Both the position numbers and the translations under genes were made by a program. A stretch of 64,000 nucleotides of DNA, from contig NZ_JAENIK010000011.1 in assembly GCF_016595465.1 (NCBI RefSeq), positions 62,001 to 126,000 on the forward strand, written 5' to 3'. The stretch comes from Luteolibacter yonseiensis (lineage in GTDB: Bacteria > Verrucomicrobiota > Verrucomicrobiia > Verrucomicrobiales > Akkermansiaceae). Of the stretch, positions 1,055 through 25,535 are shown piece by piece. Under the pieces are notes generated by a model, which saw nothing but the letters and a program-made list of their open reading frames with translations, did not search any database and was not told the origin of the DNA. Numbering within the stretch: position 1 is the stretch's first letter; each line of letters opens with the position of its first letter.

Positions 1055-3373
1055 ATGAAAACAGACAGCGATTTCAGTTCAACAAGTCTCCGTTCCACCG
1101 GACGGTCGGAAAAATTGGCCATGACCAGCACCCTTCTGGCGCTGAGCCAGTTGGCGGCACCTGCGGCCACACCGGCAGCGGAGGAGTCTGCAAAGCCGGA
1201 AGGCGGCGCCACCTCATTGCCCGAGCTTGTCGTGCAGGCGGATGGGACGAAGAAACTCTACAAGCCGGAGAATCTCACCTCCAAGAAATACACGGTGCCC
1301 ATCCGCGATGTGCCACAGACGGTGACCGTCCTGCCTCAGGAAGTGATCCGAGAGCAAGGCGCGACCAGCCTGCGCGACGTGCTTCGCAATGTGCCGGGCA
1401 TCAGCATGCAGGCTGGTGAGGGCGGCGGCGGTCCATCCGGTGACAACCTTGCGATCCGTGGCTTCGCGGCCCGTTCGGATATCTTTGTCGATGGCTTCCG
1501 GGATTCCGCCGGCGGCGGTTACACCCGTGACCCGTTCAACATCGAGCAGGTTGAAGTCGCCAAGGGACCTGCTTCCGCGAACAGCGGTCGTGGTTCCACA
1601 GGTGGTTCCGTGAACATCGCTTCGAAAACCGCACATCTCGGAAATTCCTACGGCGGGGCCGCCACCGTCGGCACCGACGAACTCTATCGCGGCACCTTCG
1701 ACGTGAACCAGGAACTGCCCTACCTCAAGGGAACGGCGTTCCGGTTGAACGGATTGCTCCACTCACAGGACATCGCCGACCGTGACGGAGTCGAGCAGGA
1801 GCGTTGGGGCGTCGCTCCGACCATCACTTTCGGACTTGGAACGGATACCCGTTTCACCCTGTCCTACATGCACTTGGATCAGGAGAACACCCCTGACTAT
1901 GGTCTCCCGTGGGTACCCCGCAACTCCACCGTCGTCGGTGCCGGCGGCACCCCCGTCACCGTCGTCAACAACACGGGTCTTGATTCCGGTATTCCGTCTG
2001 TCAGCTACGAAAACTGGTATGGCAATTCCGAGCGCGATTATGAAGAAATCCAGACCGACATCTTCACGGCGGCGTTCGAACACGACATCAACGAGAGCCT
2101 CAAGCTCACCAGCGGCTTCCGTTACAGCCGGAACGATCGAGACTCGGTGACCACGGCCCCCCGGTTCGTGAGCGACACCTCCGTCCCCGGCACGACCAGC
2201 TACAACAGCACGGTTCTGAACCAACAGTTCCAGTCGCGTGACCAACTGGACACCGGTTTCTACAACCAAACCAACTTTGTCTACGACTTCGCCACCGGCA
2301 GCGTGGAGCACACCGTGGTGACCGGCTTCGAGATCAGCCGCGAGGAGTCCAAGAATTACGGCCGCTCCGTCATTGATCCCGCCACCGGGCTTCCGATCCT
2401 GCCATCCCAAACTCCGCAGATCGACCTTCTCACCGGTGAACAACTCGTCCCTTACGTGGGTAGGATCGAGCGCAACGGCTCCTACACCAGCGCGGAGGTG
2501 GAGAGCGCGGCGGTTTATCTCTTCGACACGGCGAAGATCGACGAACACTGGGAAGTGTCCGGCGGCCTCCGTTTCGATTCGACACGCACGGACTACACGA
2601 GCTACGCGGTCACACCCACACCATTGCTCTACAACAAAACCGTTGGCGACGATGTCCTGAGCTACCGCGCCTCGGTCACCTACAAGCCGGTCAGGGAAGG
2701 AAGCATCTACTTCGGCTACGGATCCTCCTACAACCCCTCCACCGAACTGCTGACCTACGGCACGACGGCCGCCAACATCGGCGTGGATCCCGAGGAAAGC
2801 GAAACCATGGAACTCGGAGCGAAATGGGAATTCTTCGAACAGAAGCTGCTTGTGACCGGAGCCCTGTTCCGGACCGACAAATCAAACGCCCGCACCACTG
2901 ATCCAGTCACGGATGAGGTTTCCGTCACCGGGGAACAGGTCGTGCAAGGCGTCGAGGTCGGCTTCACCGGCAGCATCACCGACAAGCTGCGTTTGATCGG
3001 TGGCTACACCTTCCTCGACAGCGAGGTGGAGGAATCCGCCAACCCGCACGAAGTCGGCAACGAAGTCAGCAACACCCCGGAAAATTCCTTCAGCCTCTGG
3101 GCGGTGCATGACCTGCCGGCCGGTTTCAGCGTCGGTGTCGGCAGCCAGTATGTGGGCAGCCGCTACAACAACTCGAACGGTGAGACCCGTCAAAAGGCCC
3201 CCGATTTCATCCTGTTCAATGCGATGGCTTCCTACGATCTGAACGAAAACGTGACCTTCCGCCTCAATGCGGACAACCTCTTTGACGAAGAATACATCGA
3301 CCGTGTCGGTGGCGGACACTTCGTTCCCGGAGTCGGTCGCACCATTTCGCTCACCGCGGACTTCCAATTCTGA
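1055..3373 (+). CDS. TonB-dependent siderophore receptor (Fiu/PiuA-like)
   Basis: A complete 772-residue outer-membrane receptor. The ATG at 1055 gives a signal-like N-terminus with a hydrophobic TSTLLALSQLAAPAATPA run. The plug domain (about residues 60-190) carries VPIRDVPQTVTVLPQEVI, LRNVPGIS, LAIRGF and VEVAKGPASANSGRGSTGG, and the rest is a 22-stranded-barrel type sequence ending in the aromatic terminus TADFQF. It is followed after 24 bp by a PiuC-type hydroxylase. In Gammaproteobacteria that pairing (Fiu-YbiX, PiuA-PiuC) marks catecholate siderophore uptake, so a catechol substrate is a reasonable inference. An in-frame TTG at 995 would overlap the Fur-like box and is less likely as a start. 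Confidence 0.93.
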   Translation: MKTDSDFSSTSLRSTGRSEKLAMTSTLLALSQLAAPAATPAAEESAKPEGGATSLPELVVQADGTKKLYKPENLTSKKYTVPIRDVPQTVTVLPQEVIREQGATSLRDVLRNVPGISMQAGEGGGGPSGDNLAIRGFAARSDIFVDGFRDSAGGGYTRDPFNIEQVEVAKGPASANSGRGSTGGSVNIASKTAHLGNSYGGAATVGTDELYRGTFDVNQELPYLKGTAFRLNGLLHSQDIADRDGVEQERWGVAPTITFGLGTDTRFTLSYMHLDQENTPDYGLPWVPRNSTVVGAGGTPVTVVNNTGLDSGIPSVSYENWYGNSERDYEEIQTDIFTAAFEHDINESLKLTSGFRYSRNDRDSVTTAPRFVSDTSVPGTTSYNSTVLNQQFQSRDQLDTGFYNQTNFVYDFATGSVEHTVVTGFEISREESKNYGRSVIDPATGLPILPSQTPQIDLLTGEQLVPYVGRIERNGSYTSAEVESAAVYLFDTAKIDEHWEVSGGLRFDSTRTDYTSYAVTPTPLLYNKTVGDDVLSYRASVTYKPVREGSIYFGYGSSYNPSTELLTYGTTAANIGVDPEESETMELGAKWEFFEQKLLVTGALFRTDKSNARTTDPVTDEVSVTGEQVVQGVEVGFTGSITDKLRLIGGYTFLDSEVEESANPHEVGNEVSNTPENSFSLWAVHDLPAGFSVGVGSQYVGSRYNNSNGETRQKAPDFILFNAMASYDLNENVTFRLNADNLFDEEYIDRVGGGHFVPGVGRTISLTADFQF

Positions 3374-3397
3374 AATCCAACACCTACCGGCAGCCGC

Positions 3398-4090
3398 ATG
3401 TTGATCCGTATCCCTGACGTTCTCACCCCCGCCCAAGTGGCGGAGGCCCGTGCCATCCTTGACGCCGCCGACTGGATCGACGGCAAGGTCACCGCAGGCC
3501 ACCAGTCCGCCAAGGCGAAGGACAACATGCAGCTTCCGGAAGGTTCTCCGGCGGCGAAAGAACTCGGAGCGATGGTGCTGGAGGCATTGGGGAAAAACCC
3601 GCTGTTCCTCTCGGCCGCGCTGCCGCTCCATGTCTTTCCGCCGCTGTTCAACCGCTACACCGGCGGCCAGTCGTTCGGCACCCATGTGGACAATGCGATC
3701 CGCCAGGTGCCGGGCACCGGCCACCGCATCCGCACCGATCTCTCCGCCACCCTGTTTTTCGCGGAGCCGGAGGAATATGACGGTGGCGAGCTATGCATCG
3801 AGGACACCTACGGCGTCCAACGTGTCAAGCTTCCCGCCGGTCACATGGTGCTCTATCCGGCCACCAGCCTGCACCACGTCACGCCTGTCACGCGGGGCGC
3901 CCGCGTTTGCTCCTTTTTCTGGCTCCAAAGCATGATCCGCAGCGACGAGCAGCGCACGCTGCTGTTTGATCTCGATCTCGCCACCCAGCGCATCGCCGGG
4001 GAATTCGCCGGGCAGAAGGCCGCCGAGGACAGCACCGTCCAACTCACCGGCGTCTATCACAACCTGCTTCGCCAGTGGGCCGAAATGTGA
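3398..4090 (+). CDS. Fe(II)/2-oxoglutarate-dependent PKHD-type hydroxylase (PiuC/YbiX family)
   Basis: A 230-residue 2-oxoglutarate oxygenase of the PKHD/YbiX family, close to the usual length of about 225. The iron-binding facial triad is visible as THVDN (H96, D98) and SLHHVTP (H159), followed by the arginines of VTRGARV that would hold 2-oxoglutarate. The family sits next to siderophore receptors in many genomes, but its substrate is not settled. It lies in an iron-uptake operon: 24 bp after the receptor, and its TGA shares a base with the ATG of the PepSY protein, suggesting translational coupling. Confidence 0.9.
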
Positions 4091-5190
4091 TGAAGCTTGT
4101 AAGGAAAACCATCTTCTGGCTCCACCTCGGCATCGGCCTCCTTGCGGGCGTGCTCGTGCTGATGATGTCCGTCACGGGCGTGCTCATGGCCTTCGAGCGC
4201 CAGATTGTCGAGAAGGCGGACGGATTCCACATCACGGCCACCGGCAACCCTCTCGGACCCGAGGCGCATCTGGATGGTCTCAGGACCGCCAAACAGCCCC
4301 CTTCCTCCCTTGGATTCGAACGGGACGCCACCAGACCGGTGGTCTATCAGTTCGGAAAAGAAAAAGCCGTTTTCTCGGACCCCTATACCGGAAAATCCCT
4401 GGGCAATGGCAACACCGCCGTCCGTGGTTTCTTTAAATTCATTCTCAGCTGGCATCGCTGGCTCGGACGTGAGGGCGCCTCCCAAGCCACCGGGAAAGCA
4501 ATCATCGGGATTGGCAACCTGATGTTCCTCTTCCTCCTCGTCACAGGGGTCTTCCTGTGGTTCCCCAAACGCTGGACCCGTTCCGGTGTGAAAGCCATCA
4601 CACTGCTGCAAAAACGCCTAAAGGGCCGCGCGAGGGATTGGAACTGGCACAACGTCTTCGGTTTCTGGGCCGCCATTCCACTGCTTGTCATTGTCATCAG
4701 CGGCACCGTCATTTCCCAGCCATGGGCGACCACGCTCGTCTTCCACCTCGCTGGCGAGACTCCACCCGTCCAAGGCGAACGGAAAAAGCCGGCCCCTTTC
4801 ACCCTGCCGGAAAGCCTGGCAGGCCTCGATGCCGCTTTCGCAACAGTGAAATCCTCCAACCCCGATTGGCAAAGCATCCAGCTCCAGCTTCCTTTCGCCA
4901 AGACCGCCACCTTCATCGTCGCGGACTCCCACCGTGGACGCCCGGACCTGCGCCGCACCATCACCGTGGATCTGGCGACCTCCGGCATCGTGAAATCCGA
5001 AGGATTTGACGATCTCGGGCCCGGCCGGCAGACACGCACCTGGATCCGCTGGCTCCACACCGGGGAGGCCGGCGGCCTTCCCGGTCAGACCATCGCCGGG
5101 TTGGCGGCCACCGCCAGCGCGGTGCTGGTCTGGACCGGTTTCGCTCTCTCCTTCCGCCGGTTTTTCAAAAAACGCCGCGCCGCCGCATGA
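4090..5190 (+). CDS. PepSY-associated TM protein (possible ferric-siderophore reductase)
   Basis: A 366-residue inner-membrane protein of the PepSY_TM family. It has a first hydrophobic helix (about residues 8-32, TIFWLHLGIGLLAGVLVLMM), a central pair of membrane segments (about 140-165 and 190-220) and a last one near 330-350, with a soluble loop between them. Conserved family features include the LHLGIGL start and the FKFILSWHRWLG stretch with its histidine. Members encoded next to TonB receptors are often proposed to reduce or help release siderophore iron; that role is inference here. The start overlaps the PiuC stop by one base, and the stop overlaps the next start. Confidence 0.85.
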   Translation: MKLVRKTIFWLHLGIGLLAGVLVLMMSVTGVLMAFERQIVEKADGFHITATGNPLGPEAHLDGLRTAKQPPSSLGFERDATRPVVYQFGKEKAVFSDPYTGKSLGNGNTAVRGFFKFILSWHRWLGREGASQATGKAIIGIGNLMFLFLLVTGVFLWFPKRWTRSGVKAITLLQKRLKGRARDWNWHNVFGFWAAIPLLVIVISGTVISQPWATTLVFHLAGETPPVQGERKKPAPFTLPESLAGLDAAFATVKSSNPDWQSIQLQLPFAKTATFIVADSHRGRPDLRRTITVDLATSGIVKSEGFDDLGPGRQTRTWIRWLHTGEAGGLPGQTIAGLAATASAVLVWTGFALSFRRFFKKRRAAA

Positions 5191-6158: not shown

Positions 6159-6195
6159 ATTCCCCGATGGCGAAACACATTTTTCTTGTTATTGT

Positions 6196-6210
6196 TGAGA
6201 GCGAATCTCA
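6196..6210. promoter_or_regulatory. Fur-box-like operator upstream of tonB
   Basis: TGAGAGCGAATCTCA lies 23 bp upstream of the tonB ATG at 6233. It shares TGAGA-2-GAATCTCA with the copies at 824 and 22649. This suggests tonB-exbB-exbD has its own iron-responsive promoter as well as any readthrough from the upstream genes. Confidence 0.55.
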
Positions 6211-6232
6211 TTAGAACCGCGCTACGGCCCGC

Positions 6233-7015
6233 ATGACCTCCATCCTTTATGCCATCAATATCGGGACGCTCGCCACATGGCTGAGTGTGGCGGGATTTGG
6301 TACGGTGGGCATCGTGATCCCTGTCACCCAAGAGATCCTGCGAAGTGAAAAATCGGTCGATCCCTACAAGGATCTCGAATCCACCGTCCTGACAGACGCT
6401 TTCACGACAGACAGCGCACCTCCCTCTCAAGAGACCGACACAGGCACCACGGGCGTGGCGGAAGAAACGGAAGTTCCATTTGCAGAACAGGAAACCCTTC
6501 CCACTCCTCCGGAAATGCCGGACGTCGCGGAGGTCACCCCGTTGCCGGAGATTCCGGACATGCCTCCCCCGGTCACGAAGACCGCGGAAAATCCGGCTCC
6601 CGCGCCCACGAAGCCACGCCCTGTTCCCCGGACGAACAGCAAGACTCCCACCCGCTCGAACATGCCGACCAGCGCGACCGGCGGGTCGCCCAACACCCGG
6701 GCCGATGCCCAGGGGAAAGCGGGCAACGGCGGACAGAACGGCGGCTCGGGAATGTCCGATGCCAAGCGTCTTTCGGGTGGGCGCATGCCCGCGCCACCGT
6801 ATCCGTCCGCCGCCCGGGCGAGCGGCCAGACCGGGACGATCATCGTCGAGTTCGTGGTGGATGAAAGCGGGCGCGTCGTCTCCGCCTACGCGAAAAGCGC
6901 CTCGCCGTGGCCGCTTCTCAACGAAAGCGCCATCAATGCGGTGCGCCGCTGGAAATTTCCACCCGGAAAGGTCAGTAAATACATCCGGCCCATTGTCTTC
7001 AAATTGAACCAGTAA
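6233..7015 (+). CDS. tonB: TonB family energy transducer
   Basis: A 260-residue protein with the TonB architecture. It has one N-terminal membrane helix (about residues 8-32), a Pro/Glu/Thr-rich periplasmic spacer (about 60-140) and a C-terminal TonB domain starting at PAPPYPSAAR, with IIVEFVVDESGRVV and AVRRWKFPPG. It would carry proton-motive energy from ExbBD to the outer-membrane receptors encoded just upstream. The gene starts 74 bp after the TPR gene and 23 bp after a Fur-like box, and is followed 4 bp later by exbB. Confidence 0.92.
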   Translation: MTSILYAINIGTLATWLSVAGFGTVGIVIPVTQEILRSEKSVDPYKDLESTVLTDAFTTDSAPPSQETDTGTTGVAEETEVPFAEQETLPTPPEMPDVAEVTPLPEIPDMPPPVTKTAENPAPAPTKPRPVPRTNSKTPTRSNMPTSATGGSPNTRADAQGKAGNGGQNGGSGMSDAKRLSGGRMPAPPYPSAARASGQTGTIIVEFVVDESGRVVSAYAKSASPWPLLNESAINAVRRWKFPPGKVSKYIRPIVFKLNQ

Positions 7016-7019
7016 CTCC

Positions 7020-7700
7020 GTGCTCGCCAACATCGTCGTAGAAAAATTCATCGAAGGCGGATGGGTCATGTGGCCCATCCTCATCACCTTCCTGCTCTCC
7101 CTCTGTGTGATTCTGGACCGCTCCATCTGGTGGTCCGCTCTCCAGTCCAAGGTCCGTGGCGGTCTTCAGGAAAAAGCCCGTGAAGCGCTCGGTACCGGAG
7201 ACTTCGCCACTGCTTGGAAACTGGGTGAGAACACCCCCGAGCCATACCTTGCGAACCTGCGCGAGGGCATGAGCCACGCGAACACCTCCATGCTCGCCGC
7301 AATGCAGCTTCACGCGACCCACCTGATCGAAAAGGCCGAGGCGCGCATGTGGGTGCTCAGCACCATGATCACCCTGGCCCCGCTGCTGGGACTTTTCGGC
7401 ACCGTGGCCGGCCTCATGGGATCCTTCGCCGCCATCGGCTCGGACCAGCTCGCCGTCACCAAGGTCACCGGCGGCATCGGTGAGGCGCTCATCGCCACGG
7501 CGTGCGGCATCGCGATCGCGGTCCTCTGCCTGCTGCCCTATAACTTCTTCCGCAAGCGCGTCTCCGTCCTCCGCTCTTCTCTGGAACGCTGGATCAACCA
7601 CTCGGAACTGCTTGTCCGATCCGCCAAGGAACACGGTTACGACCTGGAGGTTTTCGCGCTCCAGACACAAGGCCGCCCCGCCCCGAAAAACAAGGCGTAA
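7020..7700 (+). CDS. exbB: MotA/TolQ/ExbB proton channel family protein
   Basis: A 226-residue inner-membrane protein with three hydrophobic segments: residues about 12-35, then two after MWVLSTMITLAPLLGLFGTVAGLMGSF and GEALIATACGIAIAVLCLLPYN. The GLFGTVxG and GEALxATAxGIxxA patterns are typical of ExbB/TolQ. The start is GTG at 7020, only 4 bp after tonB. It would form the proton channel with ExbD and TonB. Confidence 0.93.
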   Translation: MLANIVVEKFIEGGWVMWPILITFLLSLCVILDRSIWWSALQSKVRGGLQEKAREALGTGDFATAWKLGENTPEPYLANLREGMSHANTSMLAAMQLHATHLIEKAEARMWVLSTMITLAPLLGLFGTVAGLMGSFAAIGSDQLAVTKVTGGIGEALIATACGIAIAVLCLLPYNFFRKRVSVLRSSLERWINHSELLVRSAKEHGYDLEVFALQTQGRPAPKNKA

Positions 7701-18100: not shown

Positions 18101-18263
18101 CCTCACGGTGGTGCCGCCGTTGCCGGCAGGAATGCGCATCACCTCCGTTTCCTGCCGCCGTGGAAACCATTCCCCGGATGAACTCACAGGTGAATCCATC
18201 GTGGTGGATTCCCTGCCGTTCGCAGCGGAGGTGCGGCTGGAGCCTCGCGAGGGATCAGTCTAG
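15180..18263 (+). CDS. Large discoidin/six-hairpin glycosidase-like protein
   Basis: A 1027-residue protein without a signal peptide. The N-terminal third is beta-rich, with an F5/8-type (discoidin-like) segment around ITATSHKQGFPPEAVFADASLTGWQ and VDFGRPLRFGGMVI. The C-terminal half is an (alpha/alpha)6-barrel glycosidase-like domain with RSWVRDCVIMGAALAKIG, REDGFIPCVVD, LVEHDSHGQFLWGV and WNQWPEITWRDPRSPGHLGD. Acidic residues in these segments are candidate catalysts, but I cannot assign a GH family with confidence. It is convergent with, and overlaps by 9 bp, a GH94-type phosphorylase gene; together they suggest cytoplasmic beta-glucan or oligosaccharide processing. Confidence 0.7.
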   Translation: MSHHPFFSLFEDPAHWQVFASGQSEGRLSRCEGADGGCGLRLEYDFHGGGGFVVLRREVRFCLPGTFEIGFLVRGEGPENHFEFKVSDPGNTNVWRRQRENVELPANWTNVRMHERDLPFAWGPAGGGGPSEVGAVEFAIVAGSGGKGVLELASPVFEDQTLRSPRSITATSHKQGFPPEAVFADASLTGWQAAPGDASPRWEVDFGRPLRFGGMVITWPDALPRRKFTVEVSGDGNVWTGIHRSSSVLGKMSHISTPGLEARHLRITFADCGCAALCSVVLRPDAFSSTPNEFIHAVAADYPRGWFPRYWLREQSYWTPVGSPEGKRRALINEEGMVEVDEAGFSLEPFILTGGKHFTWADVETSVSLPKGGAPMPAVTWKSAAFSLEILPWVDGGDDKLTLHVTYRLTCHQPTGDTRLVVAVRPFQVNPPWQAFRNLGGRSPIHHITCGRRGLKVEGREILTTPRMDAAGAATFDENGIFPILNHQGVPAAQKVDDTSGLASAAMVWNLPGGGSILEVTVSSPYFHNAKTATAAARSRAQARWEKTLGRVKWQVPASAEPAIHAMRTAAGHILINRDGAAIQPGPRRYTRSWVRDCVIMGAALAKIGLPFALREFLTWYAPFQREDGFIPCVVDRDGVDWLVEHDSHGQFLWGVREVFREGCDRKFLLEMMPHVRKAADFLIVLRAGRLTGEYRSGEHAACFGLLPESASHEGYLAHHVHSYWDDFWGIRGLEAAAELAEMLGFSDDSRRWKSEAARFQDDLLTSINKVITDKGLNYIPGSVEWADFDPTATSNAISMLDFAGLLPEGPLQGMLDTYLDGFHRKHRGEMQWTNYTAYEIRIIGAFVRLGKRDTANELLDFFLSDRRPCEWNQWPEITWRDPRSPGHLGDVPHTWIAAEYLLAVASMIAEEREATDSLVLAAGMRWAWIADGDGFSVEDLPTRYGLLDFRIRAKDRNSILVEIGRSIDLPPGGLTVVPPLPAGMRITSVSCRRGNHSPDELTGESIVVDSLPFAAEVRLEPREGSV

Positions 18264-21200
18264 GGAAATCGTCAGGACGTCGTTGTTTCCTCCGAGGGAT
18301 TGTTTCAACGAGTCCATCGAGATCCGTGCTCCACCTGTCCGGTAGGGGTTGGATTCCCGCGTGAAATCGAGCTCACGTCCGTTGATCGCGACCGCGGTCG
18401 GCCCATGACCGCTGGAGTTGATCCGGTAGACCAACGAAATGGGTTGCTCCGCGAGAACCAGTTCCACCCGCAGTCCGTCCAGCCCGGCGGGGATCACCGG
18501 GTCGATCACCAGCGAATGTTTTTCCACGCGGATGCCGAGCAGACACTGCATGATGAGACGCACGCCGATCCCTGCTCCACTCGAGTACACACGCCAGCCG
18601 CCCTCCAGCGCGACCCCGCCGTTTTTCACGCGGTCATATTCATCGTAGGCCTGGTAGCGGTCCTTGAAGGCGGCGTCGGAGCTGGAATAGTAACAGTTCG
18701 ACTGCCTCGGTGTGGCGGTGGTGACCAATTCGTCGATGGCGATGGGGTTGATCCGGCCCAGCGCTTGGAAAAATGCCTCCGCATCTCCGTAGCGGGCGAG
18801 CGCCTCGCAGTAGCGGAGATGGGCGTGGGTATACATGATGCCGATCTCCCGTCCGAAGAAACTGGCGCTTTCCGCACGTTGGAAATTGGTTTGCAGCCCG
18901 CCGTGGTAGGCCATGGGGCGGTCGAAAAGCCGGGCACCGTCCGGACCCGACAAATGTTCGCGGATGAGTGCGAGATGGAACTCCGCCTGAGCCGGGCTGA
19001 ACATGTCGTTGATGATGGCGTGGATCATCGGCAGCAGGCTGTATGACAAGCCTGTGGTGGCGTCTCGGGGGTGGAGCAGGTAATCGGTTTTTCCATCCTG
19101 ATGGAAATAGGCGAGGCCGGTGAGCACCTCGTCCACCACGAGAGTCTTCTGGAATTCCGCCAGAATGGTTGCGGCCTGATTTTCCAAGTGATCCGCAAAA
19201 TCCGTTTTGCCGATCTGCCGGTAGGCGCTGGCGAGGGCGATGAATGTCTGGTAGTTCAGCGTAACCGTCCACGAACTGCACAGCCGTTCGCGCATGTCCG
19301 GTTTGGCGGGCTGGAGCGAGTCGTTCCAGTCCCCGTGGCCGTAGGCGGCGAGGCGCGTACCTTCGATCACCCGGGAGCGGATGAGCTCCAGAGCCCGGTC
19401 CACATGCCGCTGGATGCTGGAAGTTTCCCCGGCGTTCGCCTCCGGATTGAAAAATGGCACGGTTTCGTCCAGCAGGCCCGCATCTTCCGTGGCGGTCAGA
19501 TATTGCGCGAGTGCGACAAGCGGCCAGTAAACGATGTCGCCATGGGAGTCCCCGGGCCGGATGTTGCGCTCGCGGTCGAAGAACATGAACCACTGCGGCC
19601 AGTCCCCATCGGTGTTCTGCTGGCGGAAGACCCGCAGCAACAGGTCGCGGATCGGTGCGAAGCGGCCCAGCGCGAGAAGCAGTTCCACCGGACCCTGGCA
19701 GACGTCACGGGTGCCCCAGCCTCCGCCGGAGTATTGTTCGAGTCCGCGTGGGGAAAGGTAGTGGACGAGCGCGTTGTGGATGAACCATGGAAAGATATCC
19801 GCGGCGCGTTCCGCCGCCGGAGCGAGCGGGCTTGCGGAAGGGGCATGGATCCGCAGGCCGGAGCCGATGGTTTTCCAAAAATCTTCCGCTTGCTCCACCG
19901 TGTCATCCACGAGACGGCCACGCATGACAAGGCTTGCGGTGGTGCTCTCCGCAGTGATGAGGCAGAGGAACGGTTGGTCATGGCTGACGGCATCCGGGAA
20001 GAGCAGTTCGTCGCCACCGGTTTTTTCCACCACGGTGCCGCCGCTGGCTTCGATCAAGAACCGTCCGTCGGGGAAACGGCGTCCCACATCGCTATCCGGA
20101 ATGGCGCGGAGGATCGCGGTGTTTCCTTGGACTTCGAATCCGGCGGGAACGGACGCGCTGCCGTCATCACCATTCAGGGCGACGTGATGGGAAATCAGGA
20201 ACCTGGCAGGACCTCCTTTTGAGATCGTCAGGGACAGGCGGAGCTCATGGCGGTCATCCGGCGCGGTGGAAACCACTTCGATCACTCCTTCCGCGTGTTT
20301 GTAAATCCAGCGGCAGGCATCCGTTGTCATTTCAAATGCGGACGGCACGCCCAGCAGTTTCCAATCGCCTCCGAGTTCGACGAAAACACGCTGCCCATGG
20401 CTGCGGAACAGCCCGAGGTAGCTGTGGCAGGTGGAGAGGAACCGGTTGATGCTGACGTGGCCTTGCGTGACCATGGAGTGGAACACCCCGTTCATCCAAG
20501 CGGTGGAGGTGAGCGCGGATTCGTCAGGTGTCAGGGAGCCGCCCGAACGCAGGATATGGCCATGCGGCCGGAGCACGGCGAGTTCCTTTTCCTTCAGGAC
20601 CACGTGGCTGGCACGATCGCTGAAGAACGATGCGAGCGAGCCGTTCCGGAGCTCCGCATGGCGCCGCCCGGTGCCGAAAAAGTGGTCCAGTTCGTCATCG
20701 CCGAGCGGTGTGGTCTCCAACAATGGAGCCGATGCGAAAAGGCCCGGCGCGGGAGGTGCCGCCGGGATTTCCGCGGGCCAGGCAGGGCAGGTGGATTCGG
20801 GCAGGGCCAGAGCGGCATCGATCCGGCGTGTGTCGTCACCGGAGGTGGCGGTGGTCTTGTCCACTTCGAACCAGCCGAAGAAACCGCGCTGTGATTTTTC
20901 GCCCGGTTTCAGGGTGACCTCCTCGTCCTGGATGGCTACCAGCGAATGCTCGTGCTGCAGGCGTTCGCCGGGTAATCCATTCGCGAGCGCATCCGCGACC
21001 GCGCCCTGGCGGGCGGCAAGGCCATGGAACTGGAGTGCGTCGGTGGAATAGGAAACGGCTTTTCCCAGCGAACCGATGACGGTCCACGGGCAGCGGCCTC
21101 CCATCGCCTGGTTTTGGCGGGAGGCGACGGCAATACCGGCCCGCGGGTGTTCCAGCGGGGCGTGATCCACATACTGGCTGACGTAGAACTCGTTCAGCCG

Positions 21201-21626
21201 GACCGCGCCATAGTTCGCGATGGCGATGTCCTGCGTGTGGATGAGGTCATACGAAATCTCGTTTTCCCCCGTGTTCTCCACCTCCACGTGCCAGAACCAT
21301 GCCTTGGCGGATTCCGCCAGCAGCAGCCTCACCCGGAATGCCAGATCTCCCCATACGCCACCGGCGACGAATCCCCGTTCATCCATCTCATAAGCCGCGG
21401 GACTGCCGGGACCGGTCAAGGGAATGAAGCCGGAAGAATCCCCCGAACGACGCAGGAAGATGTTGGATGCCGCGCCCTCGGACTCGTTGCCGAGGAAGAC
21501 ATTCAACATGATGTCCCCGCAGTCCATGCGTCGGACGGTACCATTCGCGTTCAACTCGGCGCTCATGCCGGAGGGGCTGGACACGCGGTGCGGGAAATTG
21601 ACGGGAGGGTGCGTGGCGGTTGACAT
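18255..21626 (-). CDS. GH94-type cellobiose/oligoglucan phosphorylase-like protein
   Basis: An 1123-residue cytoplasmic protein with the GH94 glycoside phosphorylase layout. It has an N-terminal beta-sandwich (SSPSGMSAELNANG..., DIMLNVFLGNE), then an (alpha/alpha)6 barrel with YSGGGWGTRDVCQGPVE, in which D641 is the likely general acid, then YGHGDWNDSLQ. The C-terminal beta part holds GVRLIMQCLLGIRV and KHSLVIDPVIPAGLDG. GH94 enzymes phosphorolyse beta-glucosides to glucose 1-phosphate. The length favours long-chain beta-glucan or cellobionate-type relatives over plain cellobiose phosphorylase (about 800 residues); the exact substrate is not decidable here. Confidence 0.82.
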   Translation of the reverse strand: MSTATHPPVNFPHRVSSPSGMSAELNANGTVRRMDCGDIMLNVFLGNESEGAASNIFLRRSGDSSGFIPLTGPGSPAAYEMDERGFVAGGVWGDLAFRVRLLLAESAKAWFWHVEVENTGENEISYDLIHTQDIAIANYGAVRLNEFYVSQYVDHAPLEHPRAGIAVASRQNQAMGGRCPWTVIGSLGKAVSYSTDALQFHGLAARQGAVADALANGLPGERLQHEHSLVAIQDEEVTLKPGEKSQRGFFGWFEVDKTTATSGDDTRRIDAALALPESTCPAWPAEIPAAPPAPGLFASAPLLETTPLGDDELDHFFGTGRRHAELRNGSLASFFSDRASHVVLKEKELAVLRPHGHILRSGGSLTPDESALTSTAWMNGVFHSMVTQGHVSINRFLSTCHSYLGLFRSHGQRVFVELGGDWKLLGVPSAFEMTTDACRWIYKHAEGVIEVVSTAPDDRHELRLSLTISKGGPARFLISHHVALNGDDGSASVPAGFEVQGNTAILRAIPDSDVGRRFPDGRFLIEASGGTVVEKTGGDELLFPDAVSHDQPFLCLITAESTTASLVMRGRLVDDTVEQAEDFWKTIGSGLRIHAPSASPLAPAAERAADIFPWFIHNALVHYLSPRGLEQYSGGGWGTRDVCQGPVELLLALGRFAPIRDLLLRVFRQQNTDGDWPQWFMFFDRERNIRPGDSHGDIVYWPLVALAQYLTATEDAGLLDETVPFFNPEANAGETSSIQRHVDRALELIRSRVIEGTRLAAYGHGDWNDSLQPAKPDMRERLCSSWTVTLNYQTFIALASAYRQIGKTDFADHLENQAATILAEFQKTLVVDEVLTGLAYFHQDGKTDYLLHPRDATTGLSYSLLPMIHAIINDMFSPAQAEFHLALIREHLSGPDGARLFDRPMAYHGGLQTNFQRAESASFFGREIGIMYTHAHLRYCEALARYGDAEAFFQALGRINPIAIDELVTTATPRQSNCYYSSSDAAFKDRYQAYDEYDRVKNGGVALEGGWRVYSSGAGIGVRLIMQCLLGIRVEKHSLVIDPVIPAGLDGLRVELVLAEQPISLVYRINSSGHGPTAVAINGRELDFTRESNPYRTGGARISMDSLKQSLGGNNDVLTISLD

Positions 21627-21778: not shown

Positions 21779-22198
21779 TCAAGCGGCGATCGCCTTATAG
21801 CGGAACGCGAGCTGGAGGCGGTTGGATTGGTAACCGCGGTCCATCCGGATCTGTTGGATGGAGCGCAGGCAGAAGCTCTCGAGATCGTCGTCTTTCCCCA
21901 GAGCGAATGGCAGCGTCTCCAGTTCGTCTCCCTCGCTGCGGACAGAGATTTCGACGTGTTTTTCAAGCCACGCCTGGAGCGGGGCGAGCTGGGACTGCAT
22001 TTTCCCCCCGGCGGCTTCAAAGAGGCGGAAAAAACAACGGACACATTTGCCGGGGTGCCCTTGGTTCATCAGCAGTTCGCGGAGATCGAGGATCGCATCC
22101 GCCTCGCGGGCCAGCACGGGAGCAAGGGGGCGGAGGATGTGGTCGATCTCTTCGTAAGAATGCTGCACGGGCGGGAAAGAAGCCCAAGTGAGACTCAT
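21779..22198 (-). CDS. Hypothetical protein
   Basis: A 139-residue protein with no signal peptide or membrane segment, starting at ATG 22198 (MSLTWASFPPVQHSYEEID). It is helical, with a single Cys pair in KCVRC near residue 52. It lies on the same strand as the GH94 gene, 152 bp upstream of it. I do not recognise a family. Confidence 0.55.
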   Translation of the reverse strand: MSLTWASFPPVQHSYEEIDHILRPLAPVLAREADAILDLRELLMNQGHPGKCVRCFFRLFEAAGGKMQSQLAPLQAWLEKHVEISVRSEGDELETLPFALGKDDDLESFCLRSIQQIRMDRGYQSNRLQLAFRYKAIAA

Positions 22199-22293
22199 TC
22201 GCAATAAAAATCTAAGAATCCGAACCCAACCGAATGATTATCAATATGCGTCCGTTTGCTCCTCCCTGACAAATTGGTATGATGGGCCGAAAC

Positions 22294-22332
22294 AAAAAAA
22301 ACTCCGGCACCTGACGGCACCGGAGTTTTTTC
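22294..22332. terminator. Rho-independent terminator after the four-Cys small protein
   Basis: The stem ACTCCGG/CCGGAGT (22302-22308, 22321-22327) is extended by an A-run on the left and a T-run on the right. It lies 11 bp past the stop of the leftward gene ending at 22343 and could act in both directions. Confidence 0.8.
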
Positions 22333-22342
22333 AAAGTGAGGA

Positions 22343-22543
22343 TCACTCGGTTTTTTGGAAGAAGTCACCGCACCAATCGTCGTTGGCGGTCATCGGGAAC
22401 ATGGATTCGAATTTCACTTCTTCGTCCACCTCGAAAGCGATGGTTTGAGGAGCGTGACGACGGCATTCGCCTGTATCGTCACCGAGAGAGTTCCAGTAAG
22501 CGCAAGCTTCGCAAGCGCGGGTGATGGTTTGAGTGTTGTTCAT
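22343..22543 (-). CDS. Small four-cysteine protein (likely metal-binding)
   Basis: A 66-residue protein with C11-x2-C14, C27 (GECRRHAP) and C58 in NDDWCGDF. The CxxCxxW...GxCRxxxP...WCG(D/E)F spacing recurs in small bacterial proteins and would suit a zinc or iron site. A strong terminator follows. A Fur-box-like palindrome (22649-22663) lies about 105 bp upstream in the divergent promoter region. Function unknown. Confidence 0.75.
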   Translation of the reverse strand: MNNTQTITRACEACAYWNSLGDDTGECRRHAPQTIAFEVDEEVKFESMFPMTANDDWCGDFFQKTE

Positions 22544-22648
22544 GGTGATTGGGGTTAAATTCGACCCATGGATACCTCCTATTCTCAACAAGCGCAAGAA
22601 ACATTTGTCGCAAGTGACTAAAATTCATTAATTTATGAACATGTTAGA

Positions 22649-22663
22649 TGAGATCGAATCTCA
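22649..22663. promoter_or_regulatory. Fur-box-like operator between two divergent genes
   Basis: TGAGATCGAATCTCA is the most symmetrical copy of the palindrome also found at 824 and 6196 (6 of 7 positions pair). It lies between the leftward four-Cys protein gene and the rightward gene at 22774, so it could control either or both. Confidence 0.5.
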
Positions 22664-22773
22664 ATAACAAAATGCCAGAGAGACGACTGGTTTCATTTCC
22701 CCCCACCCGAGTGGAAAATGGCTGGAATAAAATAGTGGCACTGGCCGCACCGATTTCTTCTTATGCGTTCCAT

Positions 22774-23727: not shown

Positions 23728-24312
23728 TCAACTGAGGAAATCCCGGTAAGCGAAGTCATCAAGCTCTCCTTCCGGGATTTTCCGGCGTATTTGAAGCCAC
23801 CTCCTGCGCTCTTGCGGGAGAATCCCATCATTTAGCTTATAATGTTCGATAGTGATAAAGGCTCTCTGCTGCTCCTCGGTTGTTGAAATTGGATTCGGGC
23901 TGATTTCTCCAGTCGTGTAGTCGAAAATAAAATATCGGGCGAAATCATATTCGCCCTCGTCAGGTTTGAGAATACCCGGATCAAAACGCTCCTTCTTCGC
24001 CCCTTGGCAACGCGTGCAGCAGTAGAAAAGATTTCCCCATTCGAAGGCTTTTTCCGGGAAGGTACTTTTGGGATGAAAGTGCTCGATTGTTTCAATGGAC
24101 ACAGCGGCAACTGGAAATCCATCACAGAAACTGCAGTGGCTGGCCGTTTGGATACGTAGAGGCTCCAGAATCCATTGGTTGACAGGGATGCCGTCCTTAA
24201 CCGGCCAACGCCACGGCTTTCCTTCCGAACGACTTGCGCTCCAGCTTGCCGCCCATGTGACGGCACCATTTTTCAAGACAGGGGGTTCCTCCTGCCGCAC
24301 TTGCTTCCTCAT
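23728..24312 (-). CDS. ptuB: HNH nuclease, PtuB-like subunit of a Septu-type defence cassette
   Basis: A 194-residue HNH endonuclease. C60-x2-C63 (HCSFCDG), the ETIEHFHPKS motif (H78, H80), N94 in EWGNLFYCC and C99-x2-C102 (CTRC) form the zinc-supported beta-beta-alpha metal nuclease. Its ATG overlaps the stop of the upstream ATPase gene by 4 bp (ATGA), so the two are translated together. The ATPase-plus-HNH pair matches the PtuA-PtuB arrangement of Septu anti-phage systems. The symbol is given by analogy; related ATPase-HNH pairs (retron effectors, other AAA15/21 modules) are possible alternatives. Confidence 0.7.
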   Translation of the reverse strand: MRKQVRQEEPPVLKNGAVTWAASWSASRSEGKPWRWPVKDGIPVNQWILEPLRIQTASHCSFCDGFPVAAVSIETIEHFHPKSTFPEKAFEWGNLFYCCTRCQGAKKERFDPGILKPDEGEYDFARYFIFDYTTGEISPNPISTTEEQQRAFITIEHYKLNDGILPQERRRWLQIRRKIPEGELDDFAYRDFLS

Positions 24313-25535
24313 GGTTTTGCGGCGGTCAACTTTTCAAGTTGGCGGTCAAGCTGCCGCAGCTCCATGCCAATGATGTTCGATAACTCTTCACTGCGGCTGG
24401 AAATGGTCGCGGCGAGAGCGCGTACCTTTGACTCCGCTTCGGTATTTCCTTTCAGAGCGGCATCCCTACATGCTCGGAATTCGATCAGCAGTTTTTCGCT
24501 TTCTGGGTCGAACCATTCTGAAAGGCCAAGAATTTCGGAAACTGCGGTCACATAACTATCTCCTTTCGATGCGGGAATGGCTTTTGAAATCGAGACTTCA
24601 TCATCTTCGTTAGTAGTTAGCCTGTAAATAAACCCTTCATTTACAGAACTAACAACAAAAGGCGAGTGAGTTGCTACAAAAAACTGGCTATTCGGAAATA
24701 GCTTTTGAGCAATAGGCAACACTCTTCGCTGCCACTCGGGATGGAGATAAGATTCCGGCTCATCTAGGAAGAAAAAAGCTTCTTCAGCCAAGGGATCCTT
24801 ACTCTCTTGAAATTTAATATCCATGACCGTGGCTGCCGTGAACATCCAAGAAAGTATGCTATTTAGCCCCGCCGGCATTCCTTTGATGGGCAGCAACCGA
24901 TCTCCCCATTGGAACATGAGCCTGGGTTCTGGGTGTGCCTGGGCTATTACTGAGAAGCGGCGTTCGGTAATTTCACTAATAGCAGATTCGATACGCTGGG
25001 CTACAGTAAGGGTTCGCCCCGGTTTTTCAGGATCACCATTCATTAGCTCCATTGCGGCTTGCACTTTTAGATTGGCAATCCGCTGATTGATATCCCTCGA
25101 TATCCACGAATTAAAGGAAAGACGTTCATGTGCACTCGGCAGCGGAACATTTTTCAATACCTCAAGTTGTGAACTCTCGATTAAGGGAATACTTGAAAAT
25201 GAGAATGCTAACATCGCCTTATCGGGATGGGTCCTTCGCACCTGACAAACATATTCGCCACTAAATGCATCTCGAACGCTCGTATCCCAACTATCTTCCG
25301 TAATCTGATTCCAGTTGGTGAGTGTCAAACCTTCTGGAAATCTTTCAGATCGTATAAGATCATCCCTGGTTGTAGATGCGGCTAGAATCGACAAGAGTCG
25401 GCTCTTGCCTGTTCCATTCGGCCCAGTGAACAGATGCATTTCCCCTTGATTACCCCTATCAGGGGATTGGGGAAAGTTAACCTCACTATTTGCAAAAGGA
25501 AATAAGGTTAAGCTATTTATTCCTTCAATTCTCAT
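24309..25535 (-). CDS. ptuA: AAA ATPase, PtuA-like subunit of a Septu-type defence cassette
   Basis: A 408-residue ABC/SMC-like ATPase of the AAA_21/OLD-like type. It has Walker A GPNGTGKS (38-45), Walker B plus D-loop EEAFFFLDEPESYLHPEWQRR, and the switch histidine in FVATHSPFVVSS. No TOPRIM domain follows, which separates it from OLD nucleases; the nuclease is instead the HNH protein encoded next to it. Much of the gene (24.57-25.53 kb) is visibly AT-richer than its neighbours, a sign of transfer. It lies 44 bp from tyrS, as a compact insertion between chromosomal genes. Confidence 0.72.
   Translation of the reverse strand: MRIEGINSLTLFPFANSEVNFPQSPDRGNQGEMHLFTGPNGTGKSRLLSILAASTTRDDLIRSERFPEGLTLTNWNQITEDSWDTSVRDAFSGEYVCQVRRTHPDKAMLAFSFSSIPLIESSQLEVLKNVPLPSAHERLSFNSWISRDINQRIANLKVQAAMELMNGDPEKPGRTLTVAQRIESAISEITERRFSVIAQAHPEPRLMFQWGDRLLPIKGMPAGLNSILSWMFTAATVMDIKFQESKDPLAEEAFFFLDEPESYLHPEWQRRVLPIAQKLFPNSQFFVATHSPFVVSSVNEGFIYRLTTNEDDEVSISKAIPASKGDSYVTAVSEILGLSEWFDPESEKLLIEFRACRDAALKGNTEAESKVRALAATISSRSEELSNIIGMELRQLDRQLEKLTAAKP

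Follow-up and report, generated by a model that had tools for sequence, protein, structure and literature searches.

The locus studied here lies in a 64,000-nucleotide stretch of the Luteolibacter yonseiensis genome (hereafter the window) and holds two small genes on the minus strand, a terminator between them and two operator-like sites:

22648–22664, no strand assigned: Fur-box-like operator ATGAGATCGAATCTCAA in the divergent intergenic region upstream of the mini-protein gene (third-best site in the window at 18.2 bits)
22343–22543, minus strand: mini-protein coding sequence, 66 residues, four cysteines (Cys11, Cys14, Cys27 and Cys58), HiPIP-like family
22296–22336, minus strand: intrinsic terminator in the gap between DUFx and the mini-protein gene, which it follows directly (hairpin of −24.8 kcal/mol, z −6.3)
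22188–22204, no strand assigned: Fur-box-like operator GTGAGACTCATTCGCAA overlapping the DUFx start (best site in the window at 20.2 bits)
21779–22198, minus strand: DUFx, an unannotated partner protein of 139 residues with invariant Cys52 and Cys110, co-occurring with the mini-protein

The mini-protein reading frame begins with ATG at 22543 and its stop codon ends at 22343. Its cysteines follow the pattern C-x2-C-x12-C-x30-C with a single CxxC, and the frame and its translation bear out the 66-residue protein with CxxC, GxC and WCGDF cysteines named in a preliminary description of this DNA. By eye, no export signal is visible in the N-terminus (MNNTQTITRAC, the first cysteine being residue 11). 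Searches of Pfam, NCBIfam and PHROGs with the window mini-protein alone gave zero significant families. The strong terminator that the same description assigned to the gene is also present, and none of 200 shuffles gave a hairpin as good. A hairpin followed by a T run was found in the gap between the mini-protein gene and DUFx in 8 of 13 loci, whereas 20 shuffle runs gave 0–2 of 13 each. The two genes seem to be transcribed separately, each often under a box of its own. Directly before the mini-protein ATG, a perfect AGGAGG and a four-codon open frame (M-G-R-I-stop) were noted by eye at 22555–22580 on the minus strand; the frame may encode a leader peptide. The single Rfam match up to E 1 had an E of 0.63, below the cut-off, and the leader had no match. 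A Septu-like anti-phage system also lies near the mini-protein gene at 23728–25535 on the minus strand, where an HNH-type protein similar to PtuB (3.4e-57) and an AAA ATPase similar to PtuA (2.7e-77) are adjacent.

Mini-protein family, proposed fold and cofactor

The preliminary description had proposed a search for the cysteine pattern across genomes, and relatives were indeed found. A single-sequence search matched the mini-protein in 7 of 99 genomes, its own genome counted; 33 loci were collected from genome_contigs, the nearest in Luteolibacter marinus (80%), and 72 loci encoding relatives lie on viral contigs (L042–L113). Searches with tblastn returned one record of the plasmids collection (best E 0.7) and six records of the phages collection (best E 0.003). 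The family to which the mini-protein belongs is unnamed and occurs on viral contigs as well as in Verrucomicrobiota and other bacteria; phrog_15838, of unknown function, is matched by 32 of 82 members. All 82 aligned rows contain the four cysteines and match the CX2CXnCXnC ligand pattern; the rows had been cut using a pattern of this type, for want of which none of the 105 loci was discarded. C11, C14, C27, P32 and C58 are invariant in the alignment, and W57, G59, P50 and R29 are nearly so. Since the seeds used to search the collections were the DWCG and GxCRR stretches, the conservation of these two is favored by the selection; the first two cysteines lie outside both seeds.

A HiPIP-like fold of the mini-protein is supported by several agreeing lines, each of them weak. 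Up to E 10, the family profile matched no PDB sequences other than three HiPIPs (2hip, 0.008; 1pih, 0.011; 3hip, 0.68). At E ≤ 1, the Pfam models HIPIP, BssC_TutF and BssB_TutG were matched by 16, 8 and 2 of the 82 members, respectively. The best HIPIP (PF01355) score was 21.2 bits against a cut-off of 22 (L072); none of the members with printed scores reached this cut-off, and the window mini-protein gave no hit. For BssC_TutF and BssB_TutG, the printed members scored 12.3–15.3 bits against gathering scores of 25–25.6, again with no hit for the window mini-protein, although a close relative (L010) covers almost the whole BssC_TutF model (positions 3–54 of 56; 12.3 bits against 25). In a profile-profile comparison with 11 HiPIPs from the same genus and order, all four cysteines were paired (E 1.4e-4, probability 53%), and the score of 23.5 was not reached in any of 200 column shuffles with the cysteine columns kept, the highest of which gave 20.7.

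The AlphaFold model of the mini-protein has a pLDDT of 88.3, with strands predicted in the stretch between the third and fourth cysteines. Foldseek gave no significant match for this model (E ≥ 1.7). Re-alignment of 213 chains with VIA yielded 10 with Z ≥ 2 from six entries, which by title are HiPIPs in three cases and small glycyl radical enzyme chains in the other three; the latter were taken for HiPIP-fold gamma subunits. The top chain was 2y8n_B (Z 4.6, rmsd 1.5 over 40), from an entry that we take to be HPAD, followed by 1b0y (3.6, rmsd 2.2 over 45), 9o8u_C (3.6), 1hrq (3.3), 9pzj_C (3.1) and 1hlq_C (3.1). All Z values for the mini-protein are below 5, and the tool warns that such values may reflect a common arrangement only.

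Two groups of known proteins can be compared with the mini-protein. HiPIP-fold mini-proteins are best known from photosynthesis, where they transfer electrons, and from glycyl radical enzymes, of which they are subunits. The mini-protein shares with HiPIPs the CX2CXnCXnC order, the GxC and a WC near the end, with weak profile and model similarity; it differs from them in a longer stretch between the third and fourth cysteines and in the CRRxxP and DWCGE motifs conserved in its family. We call it HiPIP-like and not a HiPIP because it stays below the Pfam cut-off and an export signal is not visible by eye. Of 59 related genomes, 17 (16 of the same genus and one of the same order; L114–L125) encode HiPIPs that score above the PF01355 cut-off, and none was found in the window's own genome. 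The second group is that of the accessory subunits of glycyl radical enzymes (the gamma and beta subunits of BSS and MASS and the gamma subunit of HPAD), described as tiny CX2CXnCXnC proteins with a [4Fe-4S] cluster and a HiPIP-like fold (PMC12358834, PMC12590467). The spacing of MASS beta (Cys32-35-51-86) resembles that of the mini-protein (11-14-27-58); 2y8n_B is the best match of our model. Unlike these subunits, the mini-protein is tied to DUFx and to an iron box.

The mini-protein most likely carries one [4Fe-4S] cluster. The earlier proposal of a small iron or zinc carrier is narrowed to a HiPIP-like [4Fe-4S] fold by agreeing but weak lines, and its zinc part is less favored. A zinc-binding structural mini-protein within an iron regulon, for instance a scaffold of DUFx with no electron transfer, is somewhat unlikely. 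Four cysteines would also fit Zn(Cys)4, single members weakly match zinc-finger-type Pfam models (PF18912, PF02150 and PF23580), and the sparing of iron would suit a zinc protein under iron starvation; however, the spacing of 2-12-30 contains one CxxC only and lacks the two knuckles of a zinc ribbon, each zinc model is matched by 1 of 82 members compared with 16 of 82 for HIPIP, and the six entries with Z ≥ 2 are all HiPIPs or small chains of glycyl radical enzymes.

The partner protein DUFx

Comparison of the neighboring genes brought out an unannotated protein of ~130 residues adjoining the mini-protein, which in the window is the product of 21779–22198 and had been overlooked in the preliminary description. 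Of 19 distinct Verrucomicrobiota loci, 15 have it next to the mini-protein (the window, L005, L009 and L011–L022); the four lacking this arrangement are L023, L024 and the short contigs L007 and L010. When each protein was searched separately in 288 genomes of the order, DUFx was found in 21 and the mini-protein in 21, with 20 shared; G052 has DUFx only and G068 the mini-protein only. For this count, the 21 genomes with a DUFx match at E < 1e-12 were used and three others, at 7e-5 to 9e-4, were left out. The co-occurrence gives a Fisher value of 1.4e-28, provided that both searches covered the same 288 genomes and with kinship ignored. The mini-protein lies within ~1.5 kb of DUFx in 16 of the 21 DUFx loci, and in the other five it is more distant, on a different contig or, in G052, not found.

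The structure of DUFx is confidently predicted (pLDDT 87.7). Neither sequence nor structure searches gave a match of weight: the best values were 0.019 in Pfam (COQ7, in one of 13 members), 0.031 among PDB sequences, 0.11 in Foldseek and, in VIA, a Z of 5.7 to a viral endonuclease. At E ≤ 0.01, searches with three DUFx and two Fur sequences found nothing in 17 further mini-protein loci (L025–L041) or in the 72 viral loci, so the wider mini-protein family shows no link to iron as far as these loci go. In three loci from other families of the order (L171–L173), DUFx is matched very weakly (E 7e-5 to 9e-4) and an operator-like site of 15.7–18.4 bits is present; these loci perhaps encode distant relatives of DUFx.

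Operator and candidate iron regulon

With the E. coli 19-mer Fur consensus, the best site in the divergent region begins at 22650 and agrees at 12 of 19 positions, a score that 27% of 500 local shuffles also attain. The best nearby site under this consensus, 22230–22248, lies after the terminator and before the next gene and agrees at 14 of 19 positions; it is tied by two other places, and 14 of 19 was reached in 5 of 20 shuffled windows. The E. coli consensus was rejected as a yardstick, and because it failed to single out the promoter box, a model trained on orthologs was adopted. The E. coli-type core AATGATAATCATT has 15 matches in the window against 6.9 expected (equaled in 1 of 100 shuffles), and the nearest match to it is at 22233–22245 with one mismatch; a second short E. 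coli-type pattern (1 match, 0.29 expected) was also set aside.

The repeat first became visible when the upstream and gap regions were read side by side. The operator model spans 17 bp, was seeded with this by-eye consensus and was trained on 29 regions of orthologous loci with the window excluded; its consensus is TTGAGACTCAGTCTCAA, a palindrome of the form TTGAGA-N5-TCTCAA. The mean best score in training was 14.7, compared with 7.1–7.9 in five runs of the identical procedure on shuffled regions. Scores of at least 13.8 bits were obtained for 10 of 17 training regions upstream of the mini-protein and for all 12 gaps before DUFx. The box upstream of the mini-protein is weak in L009, L010, L012 and L024 (below 5 bits) and in L015, L016 and L023 (9.6–11.3 bits), and the box is more regular before DUFx than before the mini-protein. 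A site of at least 13.9 bits lies 29–56 bp before the matched start of DUFx in 16 of 21 loci; the five without it are L163, L164, L167, L169 and L170, the gene of the last being cut by the contig end. Among 13 DUFx loci lacking blastn similarity to the training set, nine have the box, including the window. As background, 5 of 270 other 200-bp windows reach 14.

The five best hits in the window (22188, 823, 22648, 984 and 6195) score 16.6–20.2 bits. Five sites of at least 16.5 bits were found where 0.06–0.32 would be expected by chance; the maxima of ten Markov windows scored with the same model were 10.9–18.0. Hence the divergent promoter region described earlier does have a Fur-like box, but that box is third in the window and not the best, and the top site stands before DUFx. 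The three other sites lie among genes of iron uptake:

823–839, no strand assigned: operator in the region separating two divergent TonB-dependent receptors (18.4 bits)
984–1000, no strand assigned: operator before the TonB-dependent receptor on the plus strand (17.3 bits)
1055–3373, plus strand: TonB-dependent receptor behind the operator, a regulon candidate (PF00593, 4.3e-54; PF07715)
3398–4090, plus strand: PKHD-type 2OG-Fe(II) hydroxylase, PiuC/CciO-like, after the receptor (PF18331, PF13640)
4090–5190, plus strand: PepSY-associated TM protein (PF03929, 1.7e-47)
6195–6211, no strand assigned: operator upstream of tonB-exbB (16.6 bits)
6233–7015, plus strand: TonB (PF03544)
7020–7700, plus strand: ExbB (PF01618)

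CciT-CciO and PiuA-PiuC are described as iron uptake pairs, and the receptor and PKHD hydroxylase at 1055–4090 are so arranged behind the same operator (PMC12004947). The receptor-hydroxylase pair is a neighbor in the regulon and stands outside the mini-protein/DUFx pair.

A stringent pattern, written after the sites at 823, 6195, 22648 and others had been seen, matches exactly at three places in the 5.7-Mb genome, all inside the window (823, 6195 and 22648). With at most one mismatch, it gives 31 strand-matches in the 5.7 Mb, compared with 2 for the reversed pattern. Six of 21 distinct one-mismatch places precede receptor units, tonB or the mini-protein. The others do not fit: one of 18.1 bits lies within an ORF (L130), one of 20.5 bits (L145; G000 C12:660269) precedes genes with no obvious iron role, and the remaining one-mismatch places, all but one of which were fetched, have at most 15 bits at the pattern. 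Siderophore receptors were scored at 4 of 12 candidates in the genome, and the units of all four, as defined by gene order and strand, lie behind a box: C11:62823; C8:42890, with PepSY_TM first; C8:125552, with a 303-residue ORF first; and C11:1333819, with a Fur-family gene next. Across the order, a siderophore receptor above the cut-off occurs in 14 of 21 DUFx genomes and in 63 of 267 others, genome size being uncontrolled.

A candidate reader of the operator is encoded in the window, one of four Fur-family regulators found in the genome:

36782–37288, plus strand: Fur-family regulator

Fur-family genes are also found near the mini-protein in 8 of 19 distinct loci (L005, L011, L014, L015, L017, L018, L019 and L021). 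Together with the operator common to the orthologous loci, siderophore-receptor units and tonB-exbB, they sustain, at the computational level, the earlier suggestion of iron control. The place after DUFx that holds the Fur gene in those eight loci is occupied in the window by an SOGP-type glycoside phosphorylase (PF21958, 4.3e-68; 18255–21626, minus strand). In 7 of the 8 Fur-family proteins beside the pair, Cys is found where the window Fur has His (EDSH to xDxC-like) and the HNH is missing, a change that possibly alters the sensed ligand. All 9 inner forks of a tree of 12 Fur-family proteins are open, and the Fur protein at C11:1336977 is therefore likened to those of the cassettes by blastp only (42% to the Fur of L018).

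These genes bear on the possibility that the mini-protein is a sensor of iron or Fe-S status, whose cluster or iron would, with DUFx, modulate the adjoining Fur-family regulator. The presence of such a gene in 8 of 19 loci and the Cys-for-His change in most of them would suit this role. We regard it as unlikely, as no Fur gene stands beside the pair in the window, L009, L013 and L016 although the contig continues, and as the placing of both mini-protein and DUFx under a box is rather effector-like.

Proposed role in iron assimilation

The balance of the evidence leans modestly towards the mini-protein being an iron-starvation-induced, cytosolic Fe-S protein of HiPIP fold that acts with DUFx in iron assimilation. 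Under iron shortage, a Fur-family repressor would leave the TTGAGA-N5-TCTCAA operator, and we propose that the mini-protein is made when iron is scarce because the repressor is then off its site. On derepression, the siderophore receptors, TonB-ExbB, the mini-protein and DUFx would all be made, DUFx from its own operator copy, and the two small proteins may form an iron-assimilation module. Within it, the mini-protein would most likely assist DUFx, either as a one-electron redox partner or as an accessory that bears a cluster; both the redox role and the physical partnership are inferred. The step served may be the release or handling of iron that the regulon's own siderophore receptors import. 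Making an Fe-S protein under iron shortage would pay off, as it does with Bfd and FhuF, if the electrons or cluster that it delivered freed incoming iron. This siderophore-iron version is favored because DUFx genomes more often contain an above-cut-off siderophore receptor. The gene and its family, the four invariant cysteines, the operator with its company and the tie to DUFx are direct results of the computation.

A broader proposal can be put forward tentatively, as a possibility: a new two-protein module of Verrucomicrobiota, each protein under a Fur box and often accompanied by a divergent Fur paralogue, which would reduce or sense siderophore iron without Bfd and bacterioferritin, its mini-protein belonging to a large, unnamed, phage-carried family of HiPIP fold.

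Alternatively, the pair might be iron-regulated and have a role unrelated to iron handling, for example anti-phage or phage-derived. Relatives at 72 viral-contig loci speak for it, among them a locus with a mini-protein 56% identical to ours and a terminase-like ORF recognized by eye (L042). We consider such a role very unlikely: PADLOC gave no hit for the mini-protein or DUFx, the DUFx and Fur queries matched 0 of the 72 viral loci, and siderophore receptors are enriched in DUFx genomes (with genome size uncontrolled).

Bfd, a small four-cysteine protein of the iron regulon, and FhuF are small [2Fe-2S] proteins of iron-starvation regulons, and the mini-protein would act like them as a small Fe-S protein induced by iron shortage. 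That it is a Bfd analogue reducing iron stored in bacterioferritin is most improbable: its size, its four cysteines and its regulon recall Bfd, and PF04324 is matched in 2 of 21 DUFx genomes (both inside long ORFs, of 672 and 870 residues), but the mini-protein itself has no Fer2_BFD (PF04324) hit, and the bacterioferritin version is weakened because TIGR00754 is above the cut-off in 0 of 21 DUFx genomes (unmatched in 20 and below the cut-off in the other).

To our knowledge, the handling of iron after uptake has been little studied in Verrucomicrobiota. The titles and abstract beginnings listed by searches of open-licence literature contain no description of the mini-protein, DUFx or a Verrucomicrobiota Fur box. 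The mini-protein stands outside all named families, as a HiPIP-like kind in a new pair that is probably under iron control. The analysis provides an operator applicable to part of the Verrucomicrobiota, as well as a candidate regulon and a linked pair of proteins of unknown function, together with a cofactor prediction. It suggests that the four-cysteine mini-protein and DUFx form a new two-part tool against iron shortage, and that HiPIP-fold mini-proteins, lacking a Pfam model of their own, are far commoner than known, viral contigs included. Longer forms were also seen by eye among the relatives: in L109 and L112 the mini-protein domain is followed by a helix-hairpin-helix-like stretch, and in L086 and L093 by ~120 more residues.
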